DNA of 32,817 bases from Anaerolineae bacterium. Lineage in GTDB: Bacteria; Chloroflexota; Anaerolineae; Anaerolineales; DRMV01. Where the stretch lies: contig DUEP01000014.1 of the NCBI GenBank assembly GCA_011176535.1, positions 1-32,817 on the forward strand, given 5' to 3'. The notes under the pieces are model-generated. The model made no database searches. It saw only the letters and a program-made list of their open reading frames with translations, and was not told the DNA's origin. Positions 10,165-30,188 of the stretch are shown here, in pieces. The position numbers were made by a program, and so were the translations under genes. Numbering within the stretch: position 1 is the stretch's first letter; each line of letters begins with the position of its first letter.

Positions 10165-10217
10165 AGCGCTCTCACCTCCTTTCGTTTTCAGGATAAGGCT
10201 CAAAACCAGCGAGCCAT

Positions 10218-10258
10218 AAAAAAACGCGCCTTTACCGACCTACCGAGGCAAAGACGCG
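10218..10258 (-). terminator. Attenuator terminator hairpin of the L10 leader
   Basis: A 12-bp stem (two wobble pairs) with a 10-base loop is followed by TTTTTTT (10224-10218). In the L10 leader mechanism, binding of L10-L12 upstream frees this stem to form and stops transcription before rplJ-rplL. Confidence 0.88.
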
Positions 10259-10341
10259 CATCATCCCTCATCAGGATGTCACCCATCTTCACCTCGGCAG
10301 GGTATTTAAGCCTTGTGGCACCTGCCTTCTTCGGCGAAGGG
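10218..10341 (-). ncRNA. L10 leader (r-protein autoregulatory attenuator)
   Basis: Leader between rplA and rplJ. Two mutually exclusive structures are visible. The antiterminator pairs CCTGCCGAGG (10301-10292) with CCTCGGTAGG (10248-10239), ten pairs with one G-U. The terminator pairs CGCGTCTTTGCC (10258-10247) with GGTAAAGGCGCG (10236-10225), twelve pairs with two wobbles, then seven U. The two share bases 10247-10248 and the terminator loop, so only one can form. An upstream ATCC-TGATGA-GGGAT element (about 10278-10263) looks like the L10-binding kink-turn region. This matches the known L10 leader class. Confidence 0.88.
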
Positions 10342-10347
10342 ATGCGT

Positions 10348-10377
10348 ATTATACCGCAAAAGGGCTCCAGCGGGCTA
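10348..10377 (-). promoter_or_regulatory. Candidate promoter for rplJ-rplL
   Basis: A perfect TATAAT (10353-10348) in GGTATAAT context lies just after the rplA stop. The -35 match is poor (TAGCCC, 10377-10372, spacer 18). If active, transcription would begin near 10341, at the start of the L10 leader, allowing L10/L12 to be made independently of rplKA. Confidence 0.5.
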
Positions 10378-12796: not shown

Positions 12797-12800
12797 TCTG

Positions 12801-12874
12801 CAGGCCAGGAGGGACTCGAACCCCCAACCGCCGGTTTTGGAGACCGGTGCTCTGCCAAATTGAGCTACTGGCCT
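12801..12874 (-). tRNA. tRNA-Trp (CCA)
   Basis: 74-base cloverleaf. Acceptor arms AGGCCAG/CTGGCCT with discriminator G; anticodon stem CCGGT/ACCGG with loop CTCCAAA, giving CCA; T-arm with GGTTCGAGTCC. No encoded CCA tail. Placed between rpmG and secE, as tRNA-Trp is in many bacteria. Confidence 0.97.
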
Positions 12875-12908
12875 GTGGGGAGGCCCGTCCAAGACGGACC
12901 CAGCTCAC

Positions 12909-13076
12909 TTATTTGGTTTCGCGGTGCAGCGTATGCCGACGACACCGCGGACAGTACTTCCGCAACTCCAACCGTTGCGGGTCATTGCGCCGGTTCTTCT
13001 CCGAAGTGTAATTCCGCTCCCGGCACTCTGTACACGCCAAAGTGATGATAATCCGCACACCCTTCTTCTTGGCCAT
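12909..13076 (-). CDS. rpmG: Ribosomal protein L33 (bL33), zinc-binding form
   Basis: 55-residue 50S protein. It starts [18 protein letters not shown] and ends [14 protein letters not shown]. Four cysteines (15, 18, 42, 45) form two CxxC pairs, so this is the zinc-containing C+ form. It follows tuf by 11 bases, with only a weak ribosome binding site, suggesting coupling to tuf translation. Its place between tuf and tRNA-Trp/secE is typical. Confidence 0.96.
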
Positions 13077-13087
13077 AGTTCACCAAC

Positions 13088-14290
<1,203 letters not shown>

Positions 14291-14394
14291 CCGTGCCCTC
14301 TCCTTTTTCGCAAAATTGCTGTTGTTTTCCAGAGAAACTCAAACAAACTTTCCCCTGACAGAGCACCCTCCGCCTGGGAAGAAATTTTTTTCAG

Positions 14395-14467
14395 AGCCCT
14401 CGACGGGACTTGAACCCGTGACCACACCCTTACCAAGGGTGTGCTCTACCGCCTGAGCTACGAGGGC
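14395..14467 (-). tRNA. tRNA-Thr (GGT)
   Basis: 73 bases. Acceptor GCCCTCG/CGAGGGC with discriminator T; anticodon stem CACCC/GGGTG with loop TTGGTAA, giving GGT; T-loop TTCAAGT. Seven bases separate it from tRNA-Tyr; a 104-base leader then runs to tuf. Confidence 0.97.
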
Positions 14468-14474
14468 TTTGAGG

Positions 14475-14557
14475 TGGGCAGGGAGGGATTCGAACCCCCG
14501 TAGGCATACGCCAGCTGATTTACAGTCAGCCCCCTTTGGCCACTTGGGTACCTGCCC
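14475..14557 (-). tRNA. tRNA-Tyr (GTA)
   Basis: 83 bases with a long variable arm, as expected for bacterial tRNA-Tyr. Acceptor GGGCAGG/CCTGCCC with discriminator A; anticodon stem GCTGA/TCAGC with loop CTGTAAA, giving GTA. Confidence 0.97.
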
Positions 14558-14569
14558 ACTTTGCGAGCC

Positions 14570-14624
14570 GTTACCGACTCGTCACCACGCCCCTCTCCTT
14601 AGGGCCCGCTCACCAGTCGGTAAC
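14570..14624 (-). other. 10-bp perfect inverted repeat in the tRNA-Thr/tRNA-Tyr spacer
   Basis: GTTACCGACT (14624-14615) and AGTCGGTAAC (14579-14570) are exact complements, separated by 35 bases that can fold further (GCCC...GGGC). It nearly fills the 69-base gap between the two tRNAs, where many bacteria carry tRNA-Gly. No tRNA is present here. It may help excise the flanking tRNAs. Confidence 0.7.
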
Positions 14625-14626
14625 CA

Positions 14627-14699
14627 AGCCGACGACGGGACTTGAACCCGTAACCAACCGCTTACAAGGCGGCCGCTCTGCCGATTGAGCTACGTCGGC
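14627..14699 (-). tRNA. tRNA-Thr (TGT)
   Basis: 73 bases. Acceptor GCCGACG/CGTCGGC with discriminator T; anticodon stem GCCGC/GCGGT (one G-U) with loop CTTGTAA, giving TGT; T-loop TTCAAGT. First gene of the tRNA-tuf-ribosomal operon. Confidence 0.97.
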
Positions 14700-19232: not shown

Positions 19233-20024
19233 CTACCGCTTGCGCCAAAGGCTGAGGCCAAACAACGCCGTGCTGAGCAGCACAATCGCCGCGCCGGAAG
19301 GCAAATTCCACAGCGCCGAGAGCCACAACCCGGCCACCACACTCAACACGCTCATCCCCACCGCCAGGGCCATCATCACGGCGAAATCGCGCGTCCAGCG
19401 ATAGGCGGCAGCGGCCGGGGTCACCAAAAGGGCCGAGACCAGCACGATCCCCACCACCTTGATCGCAGCCACTACCGTGAGGGCGATCAGGGTGAGCATC
19501 AGGTAGTACAACGGCCCCTCCGGGATTCCGGCCACCCGCGCCCCTTCGGGATCAAAAGTGATAAACAGGAACTCTTTGTAGAACAGCGTCACGGCCAACA
19601 CCACCAACACCCCTACGCCGACCACCACCCATAAGTCACTGGCCCGGATGGCCAAAATGCTCCCGAAAAGATAAGCCATCAAGTCCTGCTCATACCCTCG
19701 CCGGAGGGAAAACAGCAACACGCCAAAGGCCATCGAGGCGGCGAAGAAAATCCCCACCGCGGTATCTTCCTTGAGCGCCCCCTTGCGGGAAACCGCCCCA
19801 ATGCCCCACGCCACCAACACACAGAACCCAATGGCGGCTACCAGAGGGTGAATGCCCAGCCAAAGGCCCAGAGCCACCCCGCCCAAAGCCGCATGAGCCA
19901 CGCCGGTGCCGATGAAGGACATCCCCCGCAACACCACATACACTCCCATCAACGCCGCCATCACCCCCACGAGGACTCCGCCGAACAGCGCCCGTTGCAT
20001 GAACGCATAGTGCCACAACGCCAT
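19233..20024 (-). CDS. znuB: ZnuB-like metal ABC transporter permease
   Basis: 263-residue permease of the ABC-3 (zinc/manganese) family with about eight membrane helices. Family features: RALFGGVLVGVMAALMGVYV, VLRGMSFIGTGVAHAALGGV, the YLFGSILAI stretch and the VVGIVLVSALLVTPAAAA region that contacts the ATPase. It carries metal released by ZnuA across the membrane. The ATG at 20024 has GAGGAGG upstream; a TTG 15 bases earlier lies inside that site. Last gene of the operon, 18 bases after znuC. No clear terminator follows, although the palindromic repeat lies about 50 bases on. Confidence 0.92.
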   Translation of the reverse strand: MALWHYAFMQRALFGGVLVGVMAALMGVYVVLRGMSFIGTGVAHAALGGVALGLWLGIHPLVAAIGFCVLVAWGIGAVSRKGALKEDTAVGIFFAASMAFGVLLFSLRRGYEQDLMAYLFGSILAIRASDLWVVVGVGVLVVLAVTLFYKEFLFITFDPEGARVAGIPEGPLYYLMLTLIALTVVAAIKVVGIVLVSALLVTPAAAAYRWTRDFAVMMALAVGMSVLSVVAGLWLSALWNLPSGAAIVLLSTALFGLSLWRKR

Positions 20025-20042
20025 CCTACCCCTCCTCAAAGA

Positions 20043-20852
20043 TCAGCACTCGTCTCCCCGGCCACGCCGGAGGTCGGGCTGCTTGACCACCATGTGGGGC
20101 ACATGCCCATGGTGGAAGAAAACCACCTCGCAGCCGTAAGCCTCGGCCAGGGTGGTGTCGGTCAGCACCACTTCAGGTCGATCGTGGGCCACCACCCTCC
20201 GGTTGATGCACGCCACGATATCCACATATTGCGCCACCACCCCCACATCATGGGAGACCAGCAACACCGTGATCCCTTGCCGGTTCAAGCGCCACAACAA
20301 CGCGTAAAGACTCTCGCTGGCTGCGGCATCCACGCCGGCCGTGGGCTCATCCAACAGCAGCAAATCGGGGCGGTTGACCAGCGCCCGCGCCAGGAATACC
20401 CGCTGCCGTTGTCCGCCCGAAAGGTCGCTCAACGGGCGATGGAACAATTCCGGGATACCCACCTCAGCCAGGGCCTCCTCCACGGCCAACCTGTCCGCCT
20501 TTCCGGGGCGGCGGAACAACCCCAGCCGGCCATACCGTCCCATGAGCACCACATCCCTCACCCGCAGCGGGAAACGCAAATCCACCTGCTGCACCTGCGG
20601 CACATAGCCGATGCGCGTGCGCAGGCGGCCCAACTGCTGAGGCGGCCGGCCAAATACCTCCACCTCGCCAGCCGAGGGGGAGACCAGGCCCAAAATCACC
20701 CGCAACAGAGTAGTCTTCCCCGCCCCGTTGGGGCCGATGAGGGCGACGAACGCCTCTTCCGGCACCTCCAGCGAGGCTTTCTCCAGGGCCACGATGTGAC
20801 CGTAAGTCACCGTCACCTCGTGCACCCGAACGACCAACGGCTTTTCGCTCAC
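20043..20852 (-). CDS. znuC: ZnuC-like metal ABC transporter ATPase
   Basis: 269-residue ABC ATPase. Walker A GPNGAGKT (40-47), Q-loop in IGYVPQ, signature LSGGQ (144-148), Walker B LLLLDEP (164-170), and H-loop VSHD with His near 201. The C-terminus is His-bearing (FFHHGHVPHM), which may bind metal. The GTG at 20852 overlaps the znuA TGA (GTGA) and has TTGGAG upstream. It powers the znuB permease. Confidence 0.93.
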   Translation of the reverse strand: MSEKPLVVRVHEVTVTYGHIVALEKASLEVPEEAFVALIGPNGAGKTTLLRVILGLVSPSAGEVEVFGRPPQQLGRLRTRIGYVPQVQQVDLRFPLRVRDVVLMGRYGRLGLFRRPGKADRLAVEEALAEVGIPELFHRPLSDLSGGQRQRVFLARALVNRPDLLLLDEPTAGVDAAASESLYALLWRLNRQGITVLLVSHDVGVVAQYVDIVACINRRVVAHDRPEVVLTDTTLAEAYGCEVVFFHHGHVPHMVVKQPDLRRGRGDEC

Positions 20853-21739
20853 GGTTCGCGCTCCAATCCACGCTGGAATTGCGCCAGGTTCCAACGCATC
20901 AGGTCCAGGTAATGCACTCGGGGCGGCACACCCCCGAGGGGGTCCAGGGGCAACAACCGGGCCCCGGTCTCGGCGGCAATGGTCTCCGCCGCCTGAGGGG
21001 GGAATTGCGTGCGGGTAAACACCGCCCTGGCGCCGGTGCGTCGGACGGTCTCCACCACCTGGGCGATGTATTCCGGCGAAGGCTCCTTGCCCGGGTACGG
21101 CTCCACATAAGCCGCGGCGGTCAGGCCGTAATCCGCCAAAAAGTAGTCCCAGGCCGGGTAAATGATCACCTGACGGGTGCGAAAGTGCGCCACCGCCTCC
21201 TCGATTTCGGCATCCAGAGCCTTCAATTCGTCCAGATAGCGCGCGGCGTTGGCCCGGTAGATGCGCTCGCCGTCCGGATCAACCTCGATGAGAGCGTCCC
21301 GAATGCGCTCCACATACACCATGGCCCGCTTGGGGCTCAGCCAGAGATGGGGGTTGACGTGTTCCGTGTCGCCCTCCGGGCGCAGGATCATCCCCTGGCT
21401 CAGGGGCACCACCTTGAGATCCGGGTTTTGGGCCGCCTCGATCACCTGGGGGGCCCAGAATTCCAATCCAGCGCCGTTGAGCACCAGCAGCCGCGCCCGG
21501 CTGAGGGCCACCATCTGCGCCGCGGTGGGCTCGTAGAGATGGGGATTGCTGCCCGGTGGGATCATGGTCACCACCTCCACCCGCTCCCCGCCCACTTGGG
21601 CGACGAAATCGGCCAGGGGCGGGATGCTGGCGACCACGGTGATGCGCTCCTGGGGCGGCGCAGCCCCTCCCGCGGTGCACCCCACAAGCGCCAGAGACCA
21701 CATCAAAGCCAACAACAATTGGCGTACCCGGCGTTTCAT
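20849..21739 (-). CDS. znuA: ZnuA-like metal-binding lipoprotein (cluster A-I)
   Basis: 296-residue ABC substrate-binding lipoprotein; signal peptide with lipobox LALVGC (Cys21). Metal-ligand positions of the family: His67 (GSNPHLYEP), His131 (VNPHLWLSPKRAM), the third ligand position, normally His or Glu, is Tyr194 (IIYPAWDYFLADYGL), and Asp266 (LPLDPLGG). A long His-rich loop, common in zinc-specific members, is absent. Two tandem ATGs (21742, 21739) overlap the zur stop; the second is better spaced from AGGAGG. Zinc is inferred from the Zur-type regulator and operator; manganese or iron cannot be excluded. Confidence 0.9.
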   Translation of the reverse strand: MKRRVRQLLLALMWSLALVGCTAGGAAPPQERITVVASIPPLADFVAQVGGERVEVVTMIPPGSNPHLYEPTAAQMVALSRARLLVLNGAGLEFWAPQVIEAAQNPDLKVVPLSQGMILRPEGDTEHVNPHLWLSPKRAMVYVERIRDALIEVDPDGERIYRANAARYLDELKALDAEIEEAVAHFRTRQVIIYPAWDYFLADYGLTAAAYVEPYPGKEPSPEYIAQVVETVRRTGARAVFTRTQFPPQAAETIAAETGARLLPLDPLGGVPPRVHYLDLMRWNLAQFQRGLEREP

Positions 21740-22206
21740 CATGGCACCTCCTGGAGATTTTGCTGGCATTCAGGGCAAAGGCCAAAGAACTGCAACCAGT
21801 GGCTCTCCAGCCGAAAGCCGCTCTGACGGGCCACCTCAGCCATCAAGGCGCTGATATCATCGCCTTTGAAAAAGTACACCCGTCCACAAACGGAGCACAG
21901 GGCCAGATGGACATGGCCTTCGGGGACGGCCACATAAGCACCACACCCATCCGGGCGGTGCACCCGTTGCACCAAGCCCACTTCGGTCAGTTTGTCCAGC
22001 GTGCGGTACACCGTCACCAGGCCCAACCGGGGATAGTAAGCCCGCGCCTGCTGAAAGACCTCCATCACTTCCAGGACCCGGTCCGACGCGGCCAGCACTC
22101 GGGTGACGGCCTCACGGGGCAAGGTGCGGCGATAGCCCTGGGCCTGCAACCGAGCCCACCATTGCTCCAGGCGCTCCTGCACCTCTGGAACGGCCTTCGA
22201 GGTCAT
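21739..22206 (-). CDS. zur: Zur, Fur-family zinc-responsive repressor
   Basis: 155 residues. Winged-helix domain (about 20-85; RRTLPREAVTRVLA, LGLVTVYRTLDKLTEVGLV) and a dimerisation domain with structural zinc cysteines C104/C107 and C144/C147. C88 in PDGCGAYV together with H98 and H100 (GHVHLALC) fits the regulatory site of Zur rather than Fur or PerR. First gene of zur-znuACB, overlapping znuA. GGAG lies 6 bases before the ATG. It presumably represses its own operon through the palindrome at 22226-22240. Confidence 0.88.
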   Translation of the reverse strand: MTSKAVPEVQERLEQWWARLQAQGYRRTLPREAVTRVLAASDRVLEVMEVFQQARAYYPRLGLVTVYRTLDKLTEVGLVQRVHRPDGCGAYVAVPEGHVHLALCSVCGRVYFFKGDDISALMAEVARQSGFRLESHWLQFFGLCPECQQNLQEVP

Positions 22207-22467: not shown

Positions 22468-23151
22468 TCACCGGGAGTCGGGCAACAGCCAGCGGGTCAG
22501 GTCAGGCGTGGCCTCCAGGAGGAGATCGGCTCCAGCCCGGCGCAATTCCTCTTCTTCGCCAAAACCGCACAACACCCCCACCGTTTGCGCGCCTGCGGCC
22601 CTCCCGGCCGCGATGTCCACCACGGTATCCCCCACCATCACCCCCGCCGCTGGGGGGATGCCCATTCGCTCCGCCGCCCAGAGCACAGGGTCCGGGAAGG
22701 GCTTGGTGTGCTCACAGGTCTGCGCCGTGGCGACGCAGCAAAAGAAGCCCTGCAGGTCAAAGGCCTCCAGGAAGGCCAGGGTAGAAGCCTCCGGACGCGC
22801 GCTCACCACGGCCAGGGGATAACGCCCGGACAAGGCGACCAACATCTCGCGCACGCCGGGCACCAAACGAAACGCCGGCGGGCGATGCGGCAAAAGGCGC
22901 GCCAACCAGGAAATCAAACGCACTAACTCATCGTCGATCCCCAGCCGGTCCGGCCAGGCATAGAGGGTGTTGAAGGGCTCCTCCAGCGCCATGACCACCC
23001 GGCGGGCCACCTGTTGTGGGGTCCACCGAGGGAAGAGGAAACGGAATGGACGCAGCAGGTGCGCCAGACGGGCCACCATGAGGTCGTCGGTGTCGCTCAA
23101 GGTACCGTCCACATCGAAAAACACACCTTGCACACGCGTGACCTCCAGCAT
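22468..23151 (-). CDS. HAD-superfamily phosphatase, phosphoglycolate-phosphatase-like
   Basis: 227 residues. Motif I FFDVDGTLSD with nucleophile Asp13 and acid Asp15; motif II VVSAR (Ser117); Lys150 in HTKPFPDP as motif III; motif IV GDTVVDIAAGRAAG (Asp175, Asp179). The helical cap between motifs I and II (about 20-95) makes it a class C1 HAD, like Gph or PpaX. The substrate cannot be told. Its ATG overlaps the stop of the upstream peptidase-like gene as TGATG, with AGGAGGGG before it. Confidence 0.88.
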   Translation of the reverse strand: MLEVTRVQGVFFDVDGTLSDTDDLMVARLAHLLRPFRFLFPRWTPQQVARRVVMALEEPFNTLYAWPDRLGIDDELVRLISWLARLLPHRPPAFRLVPGVREMLVALSGRYPLAVVSARPEASTLAFLEAFDLQGFFCCVATAQTCEHTKPFPDPVLWAAERMGIPPAAGVMVGDTVVDIAAGRAAGAQTVGVLCGFGEEEELRRAGADLLLEATPDLTRWLLPDSR

Positions 23152-24563
23152 CACCCCTCCTGCTGAGCGCGGACGGCGGCCAACACGGCCCGGGCCAGGT
23201 CTTCCCCGGGGGCCATGATCCACACAGTCGTACGAGGCCCGGCAAAGAGCACATGGAACGCCGTGGCCGTGCGCCACACGGTCAGCCCTTCGCGAACTTC
23301 GGCGCGGGTTCCGGTGCGGGCATTGAGGTACTGCATAAAGGCCTTGGTGAATTCATAGCGTTCTGCGCCACTGGCCCACACCACCTGAGAAACCAGCAAC
23401 AGGGCACCGCTCTCACGATGACGGAAGAGGGCGTAAGCATCCCCATCCCATCCATCCGCTGCAGCGCGGGCCACCCCTGCGTCCAAACGCACGGCGGGCT
23501 CCACCCCATAGGCCAGCAAAGCCAGCACCCCCCACTCACCCAGCGTTCCTTGGGCGACCTTTTCCCATTCCGTGCCCAACACCGGAGCCAGCGCGGGCAA
23601 GGTGACGGACAACGGCTGGACATCGGGATAGCGTTCCGGGTGCAGGATTTGCTCGCTGCTGACCGGTGGCGCGGCATAGGCCGCGTTGACCGCCTCCCAG
23701 CCGCCGCGACTGTACAGCACGGCCACGAAATTGAGCCCAGCCTCATACGGGAACAGCGCCTGGTGTTGCACAAACCAGAGCAATCCAGCCAACCCCATCC
23801 CTTCCACCGTCTGCGCCTGCATTTGCCGTTGCTCGGCCGGAGAAGCGTACTGGGCCGCCCAAAAGACCGCGCTCCACAACGCATCCCCTTGCGTCAGCGC
23901 CGCCCTGGCCCGACAGGCATCCTCCTTCAGGAGACAGGAGAACGAAGGCACATTGGCCACGCCAAAGGCCTGCCAGGCGAAATTTTGCGCCTGTAGGGCG
24001 TGCACAAAAGCGCGCACATAAGCCCCTTTGGCGGCCCCATCGAAAGGCACCTCCGCGTTCAGGGCCATGGTTTGCGCCGGGGCATCATACACCGCGAACC
24101 GGCGGGCCACCGCCGCATCGAAAAGACGGTAATACGCCTTCCAGAGGGAATCGCCCACCCTCCGCCACCCCAGGGCGGTGAGCACCAGGGCTTCCCGGCC
24201 TACTTCTTCGGCGGGGTACGCGTCCAGGAACCCCGCCGTCCATTGCTGCGTCCACGCCTGCCGAGAGTAGACTTTCCGGGGGAGGGCGCGCAAAATGGCC
24301 AACTGGCGCACATCGGCCACCTCGCGTTCCATCCGCTCCAGCGCAGCCACCACCTCCGGTGCGAGCGCCTGGGAGGCCGCGGTGGGCGTCGGGGAAGGGA
24401 CGAACAGGGCTGTGGCCCGTGGAACAGGCTCCCGGGTGGGCGTCACGGGCACAGATGAGGCAGGGGCAGCCTCCTCCCCCACGCGGGCAAAAGTCCAAAA
24501 GAGGGCCACGATGCCCCCCCAGAGGACGAGCAAAGCCGCCACCTTCCAGAAACGCGCTTTCAT
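23151..24563 (-). CDS. Membrane-anchored degenerate zincin-like peptidase homologue
   Basis: 470 residues. One membrane helix (8-25), a Pro/Thr/Ser-rich linker (about 34-62), then a globular extracytoplasmic domain. FPYEAGLNFVAVLYSRGGWE (271-290), AVNAAYAAPPVSSEQILHPE (291-310), TLGEWGVLALL and ADGWDGDAYALFR match, from memory, a family of bacterial HExxH proteins whose core is H-E-x-T-H-A-L-Q-D-Q. Here the motif is R-A-F-V-H-A-L-Q-A-Q (184-193), and the later EGDA is QGDA (225-228). Two metal ligands and the catalytic Glu are thus replaced. A binding or regulatory role is possible. The ATG at 24563 has GGGGGA upstream and begins the signal-anchor; a GTG 30 bases earlier is an alternative. 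Confidence 0.72.
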   Translation of the reverse strand: MKARFWKVAALLVLWGGIVALFWTFARVGEEAAPASSVPVTPTREPVPRATALFVPSPTPTAASQALAPEVVAALERMEREVADVRQLAILRALPRKVYSRQAWTQQWTAGFLDAYPAEEVGREALVLTALGWRRVGDSLWKAYYRLFDAAVARRFAVYDAPAQTMALNAEVPFDGAAKGAYVRAFVHALQAQNFAWQAFGVANVPSFSCLLKEDACRARAALTQGDALWSAVFWAAQYASPAEQRQMQAQTVEGMGLAGLLWFVQHQALFPYEAGLNFVAVLYSRGGWEAVNAAYAAPPVSSEQILHPERYPDVQPLSVTLPALAPVLGTEWEKVAQGTLGEWGVLALLAYGVEPAVRLDAGVARAAADGWDGDAYALFRHRESGALLLVSQVVWASGAERYEFTKAFMQYLNARTGTRAEVREGLTVWRTATAFHVLFAGPRTTVWIMAPGEDLARAVLAAVRAQQEG

Positions 24564-24600: not shown

Positions 24601-25992
24601 TCATAGCACCTCCTCGTCTCCCCGGTCGGGATAATGCACTGCTTCAATCCCGTTGGCCTGCAACAACGCCTTCAGCGGCTCGGCCCCTTTGGGTTCGCCG
24701 TGCACCAAATAGACGCTTTTCAGCGTCTCCCGGGTGTTCAAGGCATACTTCAGCAAAATATCCTGCCCCGCATGGGCCGAAAAGCCACCGATGGTGACCA
24801 CCTCGGCGCGCACTTCGTACCACTCCCCGAAAATCCGCACCCGCTTTTCGCCTTCGGCCAAACGGCGGCCCAGAGTGTGGGGCGCCTGCCAGGAGACGAT
24901 GACCACTGTGTTGCGCGGGTTGGTGATGTTGTTCTTCAGGTGATGCAGAATCCGCCCCACTTCGGCCATCCCCGAAGCGGAAAGGATGATCATCGGTTCG
25001 TGACGGTCGTTGAGCGCCTTGGATTCCTCCACCGAGCGCACATACTCCACCAGGCCAAAGCCCAGCACATCCTCATGGTTGTGCAGTAGGGCCAGGGCTT
25101 CCTCGTCGAAACATTCCGGATGAGCGCGGTAAATCTGAGAGGCGTTGACCGCCAACGGGCTATCCACCACGATGGGGATGCGAGGCAGACTCCCTTCGCG
25201 GATCATCCGGTTGAAAGCATAGACCAGTTCCTGGGTGCGTCCCACAGCAAAGGCGGGGATGATGATCTTGCCTCCCCGGGCCACGGTGCGCAAGGTCACT
25301 TCGCGCAATTCCTCAAAGGCCGGTCCGGGGTCGCGGTGAGGCTTATCGCCGTAAGTGCATTCCATGAGCAGAAAATCGGCTTTTTCGGGCAACACCGGAT
25401 CGCGCAGGATGGGCAGATGGGGACGCCCCACATCCCCGGAGAACCACAACCTCCGGGTACGGCCCTTTTCTTCAATGTCCAGCACCACCGCCGCGGACCC
25501 CAAAATGTGGCCCGCGTCCACAAAATGGGCCACTACCCCAGGGGCCACCTCAAAGAGCTTGCCGTAATCGGTGGGGACGAAATGCGTCGCCACCATGGCC
25601 GCGTCTTCGATGGTGTACAAGGGCTCGACGGGCGGCTCTCCGCGTCGACGGCGCTTCTTGTTCAGATAAGCAGCATCGGACTCCTGGATATGCCCAGAGT
25701 CCAAGAGCATGAGGTTGGCCAGATGGGCCGTGGCCGGGGTGGCGTAAATCGGCCCCCGATACCCTGCCTTGATCAAATGGGGCAGATTGCCGCTGTGGTC
25801 GATGTGAGCATGGGACAAAATCACCGCGTCAATGGAACGGGGGTCATACGGAAAAGTACGGTTGCGCGCGTAGGTCTCGCGCCGACGGCCCTGGAAAAGC
25901 CCGCATTCGAGCAAAACGCGCGCCCCGTTGACCTCCAGCAAATGCGCCGAACCGGTCACGGTTCGGGCGGCGCCCCAAAAAGTCAAGCGCAT
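24601..25992 (-). CDS. Metallo-beta-lactamase/beta-CASP RNase-like protein
   Basis: 463 residues. Metallo-beta-lactamase motif HAHIDH (61-66), further metal ligands in FVDAGHILGS and FSGDVG, then a beta-CASP insert with GGKIIIPAFAVGRTQELVY, SASGMAEVGR, GGFSAHAGQ and a final YLVHGEPKG (motifs A-C and RMMBL). This is the CPSF73/YSH1-like group of RNA exo/endonucleases. It lacks the C-terminal domain of RNase J. AAAGGAGAG precedes the ATG. It lies 46 bases after the cyclase gene and 37 before the peptidase-like gene. Confidence 0.93.
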   Translation of the reverse strand: MRLTFWGAARTVTGSAHLLEVNGARVLLECGLFQGRRRETYARNRTFPYDPRSIDAVILSHAHIDHSGNLPHLIKAGYRGPIYATPATAHLANLMLLDSGHIQESDAAYLNKKRRRRGEPPVEPLYTIEDAAMVATHFVPTDYGKLFEVAPGVVAHFVDAGHILGSAAVVLDIEEKGRTRRLWFSGDVGRPHLPILRDPVLPEKADFLLMECTYGDKPHRDPGPAFEELREVTLRTVARGGKIIIPAFAVGRTQELVYAFNRMIREGSLPRIPIVVDSPLAVNASQIYRAHPECFDEEALALLHNHEDVLGFGLVEYVRSVEESKALNDRHEPMIILSASGMAEVGRILHHLKNNITNPRNTVVIVSWQAPHTLGRRLAEGEKRVRIFGEWYEVRAEVVTIGGFSAHAGQDILLKYALNTRETLKSVYLVHGEPKGAEPLKALLQANGIEAVHYPDRGDEEVL

Positions 25993-27814: not shown

Positions 27815-30188
27815 CTAACGACCCCTCCGCCAACGCTGCCGCAAGGCCCGCCAGGCCGTCCGACGAATCTGCCGGCGGGCGCGGCGTACGGGTTCCAGGG
27901 GCACCACCACCTTATCCGGTGGGGCGAAATGCAGGCGCACATACGCCTGGACGACCACGCCCACGGCGTCGCGGGCCAGGGGGAGCAGCCGGGCCAACCG
28001 TTCCGCCCGCTCTCCAGGCCCTTCCCCCAGCGCAGGCGCAGCGCCCAGCAAACGCAACCACACCTGCAGTTCCCAAAAGGCGCGGTCCACCTCGCCCATC
28101 CGCGTCCAGCGCCCCCATTGCCGCAGCCAACGAGGCTCCCGCCGGAAAACCCGGCGCGTCACCGCCAACAACCGATTCGGCAGCCACGGCCGCTGCAACG
28201 CCCAGAGCCCCCGGCGAGCAAGGTGAGTCCACCCAACCCCGCCAGCAACGAAAGCAGCCAACGCCACTCCACGCCCTGCGCAGCGGGTTCCCCCTCCGGC
28301 GAGGAGGCCTCAGGCCCGCCTAGAGAGGATGGCGTGGCGCCGACCGGGGCACCCGCACCCAGTTCCAGCCGCCGCCGGCGCAGCCACTCCTGAGGGGAGA
28401 GCCACTCCTCCTCGCCTTCCCCCAACGCCGGAGCAGGTGGCCGATCGCCGGGGCGCACCAAAGCAGAACGCGCCACCGTGGGCTCAAAAGGCACCCATCC
28501 CACCCCAGGGAAGTACACCTCCGGCCAGGCGTGGCTATCCCGCTCGCGCACCTGATAGGCGCCGTCGGTGTAGCGCCCTGGGCATAGCCCACGGCCAGGC
28601 GCGCCGGGATGCCCATCAGACGCAACAACACCACCTCGGCCGTAGCGTAATAGGTGCAAAAGCCCTCCTGGGCCTCAAAAAGGAACCAGTCCACCGGGTC
28701 TTTCCCCGGCGGCGGAGGCGCCGGGAGAGGGTTGCGATAAGCCATCTGCGCCCGCAGGTAGGCGGTGAGCATCTGGGCCCGGTCATAAGGGTTGTCGACC
28801 TGCTGGGCCAGCGCCGCGGCCAACTGACGCACCCGCGCGGAGATGTCCTCCGGCACCTGAAGATAAGGCGCTACCCAAGAAGGGTAATCCGTGCCCGCCT
28901 GTCGGAGTTGCTCCGCCGTCAGGGCCACCCGCCAAGCCCGCACCCGGTAACCGCTCCCGGCGGGTAAGGGCTCCTGGGCCACAAAAGCCAAGGGGTCAAC
29001 CAGTCCCTCGCCCAGGAGGACGGCCCGCAGTTGGTAGGGCACATCCAGCACCTGCGCAGGATACAGGGCCGTATAGAGCACCAGAGCGGGTTGGGCCAAA
29101 ACAAAACGCAAGGTGACTTCTTCCCCGGCCTCATCCGGACGCGGGAAAGCCACCCCCGAAGGGGCCATGCTCGCGGCGTTCTGGACCTGCCAAAGCCCCT
29201 GCCGATAAGTGGTGTACACCTGCATCCGCCAATAGTACCGCTCTCCCAAAACCGCCCGAGGGGCCTCGACCCGAAAGACCAGGGTGTCCGTTTCTGGCAC
29301 GCCCAACCCCAGGGGCAGCCGTTCGGCATACCCCACCACTCCCCACACCTTGGTGCCCTGGAGGGGTTCCACCAGACGCCCCAGACGACGCTGGATGCGC
29401 TCCCAGGGGCGGGTCACCCGCTGCCAGGTTTCCCGCACACCGGGCAAAGCCGCCTCCCAGCGCGGCAGGTGCCAGGCCAGCACCCCCACCAGCACCACCG
29501 CGCCCAAGGCCACCCGTAGCCAGTCCCATCCCAGGTCCAGGGGGATCAACAGGTGCCGCGCGCGCCAGCCGCGCACGCGTTCTCCAAATCCAAAGGTGTG
29601 CCGGGCCAGATACAGCATGGCCAGTCCCGAATAGACCAGCAAATAGACCGTGCGGGCGCGCACATAGGGGTCGTAGGCCTGGATGACCCACAGGGCCAGC
29701 AACGGAGGCAGCAGCACGCGCCACAACGCCCGCCGCCGGGCGACGGAAAAGCCCACGAACCACCCCAAAGCCCAGGCTGCCACCACCAACAGGGCCAGGA
29801 ACAACACGGGATCGCCCACCGGGCGGTCGGCGGCGAAATCCTGCCAGGCCCCCTGCAGGCGCTGGGCCAGCACAACCAGCTGGACGCGGAGGGGAGCCAA
29901 GCGGGCCACGCTCCTCGCCAGCCCGAGGGGCAACAGGACCTCGCCATAGGCCAAAGCGAGCAACGCGACAAAAGGCCAGCGCCAGCGCGTCACCCCCGCC
30001 AGGGCGCCCAAACCATAAGCCAGCAACAACGCGCCGGAGGCCAGCCCCAGGCCCGCGGTCCAGGCGGTCGCCTCCAGGCGTCCGGCCAAGGTGAGCAACA
30101 AAAAGCCCCCCAACAGCACCAACACACCGTCGGGGGCAGGGTGCGGAGGCTGCGTCGAGGGGGGCTTGTTGTGAAAAGACGCGCTCAT
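27815..30188 (-). pseudogene. TgpA-like transglutaminase membrane protein, two frameshifts
   Basis: A DUF3488-transglutaminase-DUF4129 protein that reads through three frames. Frame one (from ATG 30188) gives about 538 residues: six or so membrane helices to residue 240, then the start of the transglutaminase core with Cys511 (EGFCTYYATA) and GIPARLAVGYAQG. Frame two takes up near 28576 with RYTDGAYQVRERDSHAWPEV (the catalytic His), GWVPFEPT and the next membrane helix. Frame three takes up near 28208 with RRGLWALQRPWLPNRLLAV and a DUF4129-like tail. Each join is a -1 shift at a G-run (28576-28578 and 28208-28212); adding one G to each gives an uninterrupted 791-residue protein. Either a recent pseudogene or two assembly errors. 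The third acid of the triad is Glu (FEPT) instead of the usual Asp. Confidence 0.82.

Follow-up and report, generated by a model that had tools for sequence, protein, structure and literature searches.

The stretch of DNA analyzed here (the window) spans one complete contig, 32,817 nucleotides long, from an Anaerolineales (Chloroflexota) MAG of 2.27 Mb in 129 contigs, 97% complete, and the related records that we compared with it in the genome collection were mainly MAGs of Anaerolineales and other Chloroflexota. The gene of interest runs on the minus strand from an ATG at 24563 to a stop at 23153-23151 and encodes 470 amino acids, at the location given in the preliminary description (Table 1). 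A HAD-family phosphatase gene follows downstream and overlaps it by one base, at the junction ggTGATGctg. Elsewhere in the window, the minus strand carries a ribosomal protein L10 leader (RF00557) at 10210-10352, four tRNA genes at 12800-14699, and a transglutaminase-core protein (PF01841) at 28159-30188 that is split across two frames (profile positions 2-84 at 28320-30188 and 78-108 at 28159-28659), suggesting a frameshift, real or due to assembly error, between ~28.3 and 28.7 kb.

Table 1. Features of the gene for the putative inactive peptidase and of its neighbors, in window coordinates
Feature	Coordinates	Strand	Basis
HAD-family phosphatase, conserved partner	22468..23151	-	start codon overlaps pseudo-peptidase stop (TGATG)
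Pseudo-peptidase gene, Hvo_1808-like family	23151..24563	-	ORF, profile match, motifs
Predicted C-terminal PknH/TiME/RseB-C/PsbP-like domain, residues 317-470	23154..23615	-	structure match, constraint
Predicted degenerate zincin (gluzincin-like) domain, residues 66-316	23616..24368	-	structure model, structural matches
QGDA (225-228) instead of EGDA, presumed third metal ligand	23880..23891	-	alignment, codons
RAFVH (184-188) where HExxH expected	24000..24014	-	alignment, codons
A157, Gly in all intact members; same change in other inactive lineages	24093..24095	-	conservation comparison
Pro/Thr-rich linker, residues 28-65	24369..24482	-	sequence
Hydrophobic stretch at the N-terminus (residues 5-27), probable signal anchor, without lipobox Cys	24483..24551	-	sequence
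beta-CASP metallo-beta-lactamase nuclease	24601-25992	-	nearest NCBIfam models, neither reaching its cut-off: Cas14 of type VII CRISPR and aCPSF1

The residue numbers and motifs first given for the protein were all exact when checked on the sequence, as were the codons of the site: RAFVHALQAQ at 184-193, QGDA at 225-228, FPYEAGLNFV at 271-280, GGWEAVNAAYAAPPVSSEQI at 287-306, LGEWG at 341-345 and GWDGDAYAL at 371-379. Membrane anchoring had also been proposed, and the N-terminal hydrophobic stretch, which lacks a lipobox Cys and is followed by the Pro/Thr-rich linker, makes a membrane anchor or a signal sequence likely; in several related genomes, a lipobox occupies this position instead. A genome search found this protein to be the only family copy in its 97%-complete genome. 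A second match of 12 bits in the same genome covered only residues 17-92, including the linker, and was taken as chance.

The similarity to an HExxH family that had been proposed for this protein was borne out by a profile search, in which NCBIfam model NF038145 (Hvo_1808 family surface protein) matched residues 183-452 with an E value of 8.3e-28 and 97.8 bits, over profile positions 138-423 of 432. This score does not reach the curated cut-off of 200 bits, which was passed by no member in the phylum sample, the intact ones included (166.6 bits for the intact homologue L005), so the proteins of this phylum branch beside the haloarchaeal family as its sister. By the profile match, the window protein belongs to the Hvo_1808 surface-protein family as a divergent member, homologous to the NF038145 proteins but not an equivalog. 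Hvo_1808 itself is a lipobox protein that stays with cell-associated fractions (PMC2945643), and the literature that we found on it says no more than this. The window protein resembles this exported protein in its significant match and differs in its sub-cut-off score and in the absence of both the HExxH...E site and the lipobox. A Pfam search with the window protein gave nothing above threshold, and the intact relatives gave only a sub-threshold match to DUF6782, a "putative metallopeptidase". Likewise, the PDB sequence search with the single window protein gave no match, the family profile gave a weak match to IrrE around HExxH and nothing else in the PDB, and scanning genome contigs with the single window sequence as query returned nothing. 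A homologue is present in 40 of 61 relatives and in 167 of 400 genomes of the order.

HExxH and the downstream Glu (EG[DE]A) are intact in 54 of 58 aligned homologues, and R184, A185, H188 and Q225 of the window protein sit exactly in the HExxH...E columns. Three of the four site residues are altered (H184R, E185A and E225Q, for each of which a single base change is enough) and H188 is retained, so that RAFVH and QGDA stand where an active zincin has HExxH and its downstream Glu. The joint change of two metal ligands and the catalytic Glu, claimed at the outset together with an intact frame, is thus present at the catalytic and metal positions of intact members, in 470 open codons. The remaining three exceptions among the 58 homologues come from genus g5, which lies with the window in one taxonomic family (f1). 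When all f1 genomes were searched, genera g2 and g3 were intact where the site was covered, and the window's own genus g1 (RAxxH..Q), g4 (EAxxD..V) and g5 (HAxxR..E, YAxxQ..T, YAxxR..V and HAxxH..E) were broken; no f1 genome contained an intact and a broken copy together. Ala replaces the Glu in all eight inactive f1 members, one of which (G016 of g5, HAxxH..E) has lost the catalytic Glu alone and retains all three metal ligands. The catalytic Glu was therefore probably the first residue to go, and the alignment suggests an initial loss of catalysis followed by drift of the metal ligands. A157 and A181 are also common to the inactive f1 members where covered; like A185, they are absent or rare in intact ones.

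Because H188, Y273, E304 and H308 are retained, the window protein might still bind metal weakly. The site could also have been rebuilt into one with an altered but real activity, supported by H188 together with further polar residues or by R184 serving as a cation instead of zinc. In the six inactive proteins of genus g13, separate from the window lineage, R184 and Q225 occur together and are invariant. A study of CLCA-type zincins, a different family in which intact and substituted HExxH motifs coexist, describes Arg or Lys in place of the HExxH His more often than expected in zincin-like families; as far as we know, that study found neither an operon partner nor a movement of constraint onto another domain (PMC3650047). 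However, the replacements across inactive lineages are highly varied (YAQT, EADV, CARA and ASQK), and the window's own group of inactive members has no new conserved polar set at the site, which makes a rebuilt activity quite improbable.

AlphaFold2 models built with the family alignment were similar for the window protein (pLDDT 93.7) and an intact relative (96.8), and the prediction, proposed earlier as a check, returned a high-confidence zincin fold. As the alignment behind the window model includes intact relatives, the model may have been pulled toward their fold. Residues 66-316 are predicted to form the zincin domain, whose closest solved fold is 3cmn, a putative hydrolase of Chloroflexus aurantiacus (Z 14.0, 218 residues, rmsd 4.3), with 14% identity and no sequence-level match in the profile search. 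Further matches were a Colwellia lipoprotein (3o0y, Z 9.7), clostridial collagenase peptidase domains (Z 7.5-7.8, with collagenase G at 7.8) and an M1 peptidase (Z 6.6). From HExxH and the fold, the active members of the family are presumably peptidases. Residues 317-470 are modeled as a PknH/TiME/RseB-C/PsbP-like fold (Z 9.0-12.1, rmsd 3.2 over 143 residues); only the fold is shared with the PknH extracellular domain, TiME and the RseB C-terminal domain, at 8-10% identity.

The HAD gene directly follows many intact members, including those of Leptolinea, Ornatilinea and Thermanaerothrix; we counted 85 intact loci with it, some genomes being counted more than once. Since the gene pair is common to many intact orthologues, the window gene is a positional orthologue and not a stray paralogue. 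Broken copies, too, have the HAD gene behind them in g4, in g205 and in part of g5; two g5 genomes carry it close by, on the opposite flank of the peptidase gene. The HAD gene was not found in a search of the g2 genomes G001, G005, G009 and G012, where the peptidase is intact, so the link between the two genes is not absolute, and no HAD neighbor was seen in the flanking stretches examined around the broken copies of family f9. Both neighbors named in the preliminary description, the HAD phosphatase and an RNase-like protein, do adjoin the gene, but only the former is widely conserved; the latter, the beta-CASP protein, is not conserved in the flanks of relatives. Further downstream, beyond the HAD gene and at 19233-22206 on the minus strand, lie a Fur-family regulator and then a Znu/Mnt/Azt-type metal ABC importer (binding protein, ATPase and permease). 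These metal-uptake genes suggested that loss of the site might be tied to zinc supply, but this idea was rejected, as they were not found in the regions flanking the gene in relatives.

Further broken members were found in families f5 (g9 and g205), f9 (g13, g169, g173, g192 and g201) and f13 (g254) and in a Thermoflexales MAG, in a search that favored divergent members, both within the order and outside it, so the proportion of broken members found should not be read as a frequency. The Thermoflexales protein (L230) has HQxxH...G at the site, another apparent loss. On a tree built without the active-site columns, six changes are needed, five of which are forced by well-supported branches alone (by a quick method); the active site thus appears to have been lost several times in this family, in 5-6 separate events. 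Placement of the window protein in the tree is uncertain, with long branches. The peptidase tree does not reject a single clade of g1, g4 and g5 (p-AU 0.36), and rpoB leaves the fork among the three unresolved, leaning against such a clade (p-AU 0.07); the three shared Ala residues favor a single shared loss in g1 and g4+g5. Together with positional orthology, the trees place the inactive proteins as descendants of an intact peptidase family that lost the site.

Families f5 and f9 include genomes that carry an intact copy and an inactive one together. The broken f9 copies belong to another subfamily and have long open frames, and they occur alongside intact ones in genomes G272, G325, G355, G376 and G366. 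Such coexistence could fit a protein that regulates an intact relative from its own peptidase family or acts on it as a dominant negative, a role documented for some pseudopeptidases (PMC11266112), but no intact family member was found in the window's genome or in those of g4 and g5, and for the window protein we consider this role very unlikely. An assembly or binning artefact would come to mind in a MAG of 129 contigs; however, several separate substitutions in an intact frame, like losses in independent g4 and g5 genomes, and conserved synteny make it extremely improbable.

Apart from the four site residues, 26 of 28 near-invariant positions are kept in the window protein, the two lost being G157 and P262. 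These two and Y273 have changed repeatedly in other inactive lineages, suggesting that they probably serve catalysis or substrate binding. Frames are open in inactive relatives of several genera, and these relatives are under purifying selection, with pairwise dN/dS of 0.06-0.33 by simple counting, where dS is near or above 1 in many pairs. The pairs come from genera other than the window's own, from which we infer that its gene is under similar selection. Early decay, in which the lineage no longer needs the peptidase and its still-open frame would eventually disappear, would be in keeping with this dependence on other genera and with the faster evolution of inactive members, seen as long branches. 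Nevertheless, the 470 open codons, the retained positions, the selection on inactive relatives and the persisting HAD coupling all argue against it, and we consider decay unlikely.

Constraint is distributed differently in the two groups. The ratio of dN in the zincin domain to that in the C-terminal domain was 0.43-0.94 in ten intact pairs and 0.95-3.09 in six inactive pairs, with no overlap (Mann-Whitney p 1.2e-4, for within-clade pairs that are not fully independent), and in two of the six inactive pairs it was close to 1. Intact members therefore conserve the zincin domain more, whereas several inactive lineages conserve the C-terminal domain more. In the window protein, mean identity to intact members in the zincin domain minus that in the C-terminal domain was -0.002, below all 138 intact sequences (minimum +0.0045). 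The reversed dN ratios and the equal domain identity of the window protein indicate that constraint moved toward the C-terminal domain with the old catalytic domain still held.

Taken together, the initial observation is confirmed, and its interpretation as a disarmed zincin-family peptidase, with a fold reused rather than decaying, is supported by profile, alignment and structure. We favor, with a probability of about 0.7, an exported, membrane-anchored pseudo-metallopeptidase of orthologous descent whose fold is kept for binding outside the cytoplasm. The ancestor would have been an HExxH...E peptidase of the Hvo_1808-like family, whose gene is paired in many Anaerolineales with one for a HAD phosphatase. 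After the catalytic Glu, the metal ligands would have gone, and H184R, E185A and E225Q would have abolished zinc binding and peptide hydrolysis. The fold would remain under selection because the protein still binds something extracytoplasmic; this is an argument from retention, since the kept fold, the conserved gene pair and the recurrence of the same loss in the family suggest that the protein probably binds and does not cut. The former substrate groove could hold the binding partner, as a peptide or a protein, or a ligand could bind to the PknH/RseB-like C-terminal domain toward which constraint moved. A broader reading, which we find doubtful, is a recurrent conversion of enzyme to receptor, in which a surface peptidase, the sole copy in some cases, would have become a non-catalytic receptor outside the cytoplasm in several lineages of Anaerolineales, with readout through the PknH/RseB-like domain and Arg or Lys replacing zinc in many.

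Pseudo-metallopeptidases are already known as a class, including inactive ADAMs, FtsHi, Tma108 and others (PMC11266112). Like the window protein, these keep the peptidase fold without the catalytic or metal residues, and theirs have binding or scaffold roles; they are mostly eukaryotic, whereas the present family is bacterial, uncharacterized and HAD-coupled, with repeated losses. The literature searched, which left subscription journals mostly outside, held no report of inactive members of the Hvo_1808-like family, and what is new here is the recurrent loss in an uncharacterized family together with the shift of constraint.

Bacterial pseudo-metallopeptidases are little studied, and this family offers a natural experiment in which intact, half-broken (HAxxH...E) and fully broken orthologues coexist, with fold, gene order and purifying selection kept. 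Our findings point to the C-terminal domain as a candidate for the functional part and suggest that the Hvo_1808-like family has a useful function that is separable from catalysis.
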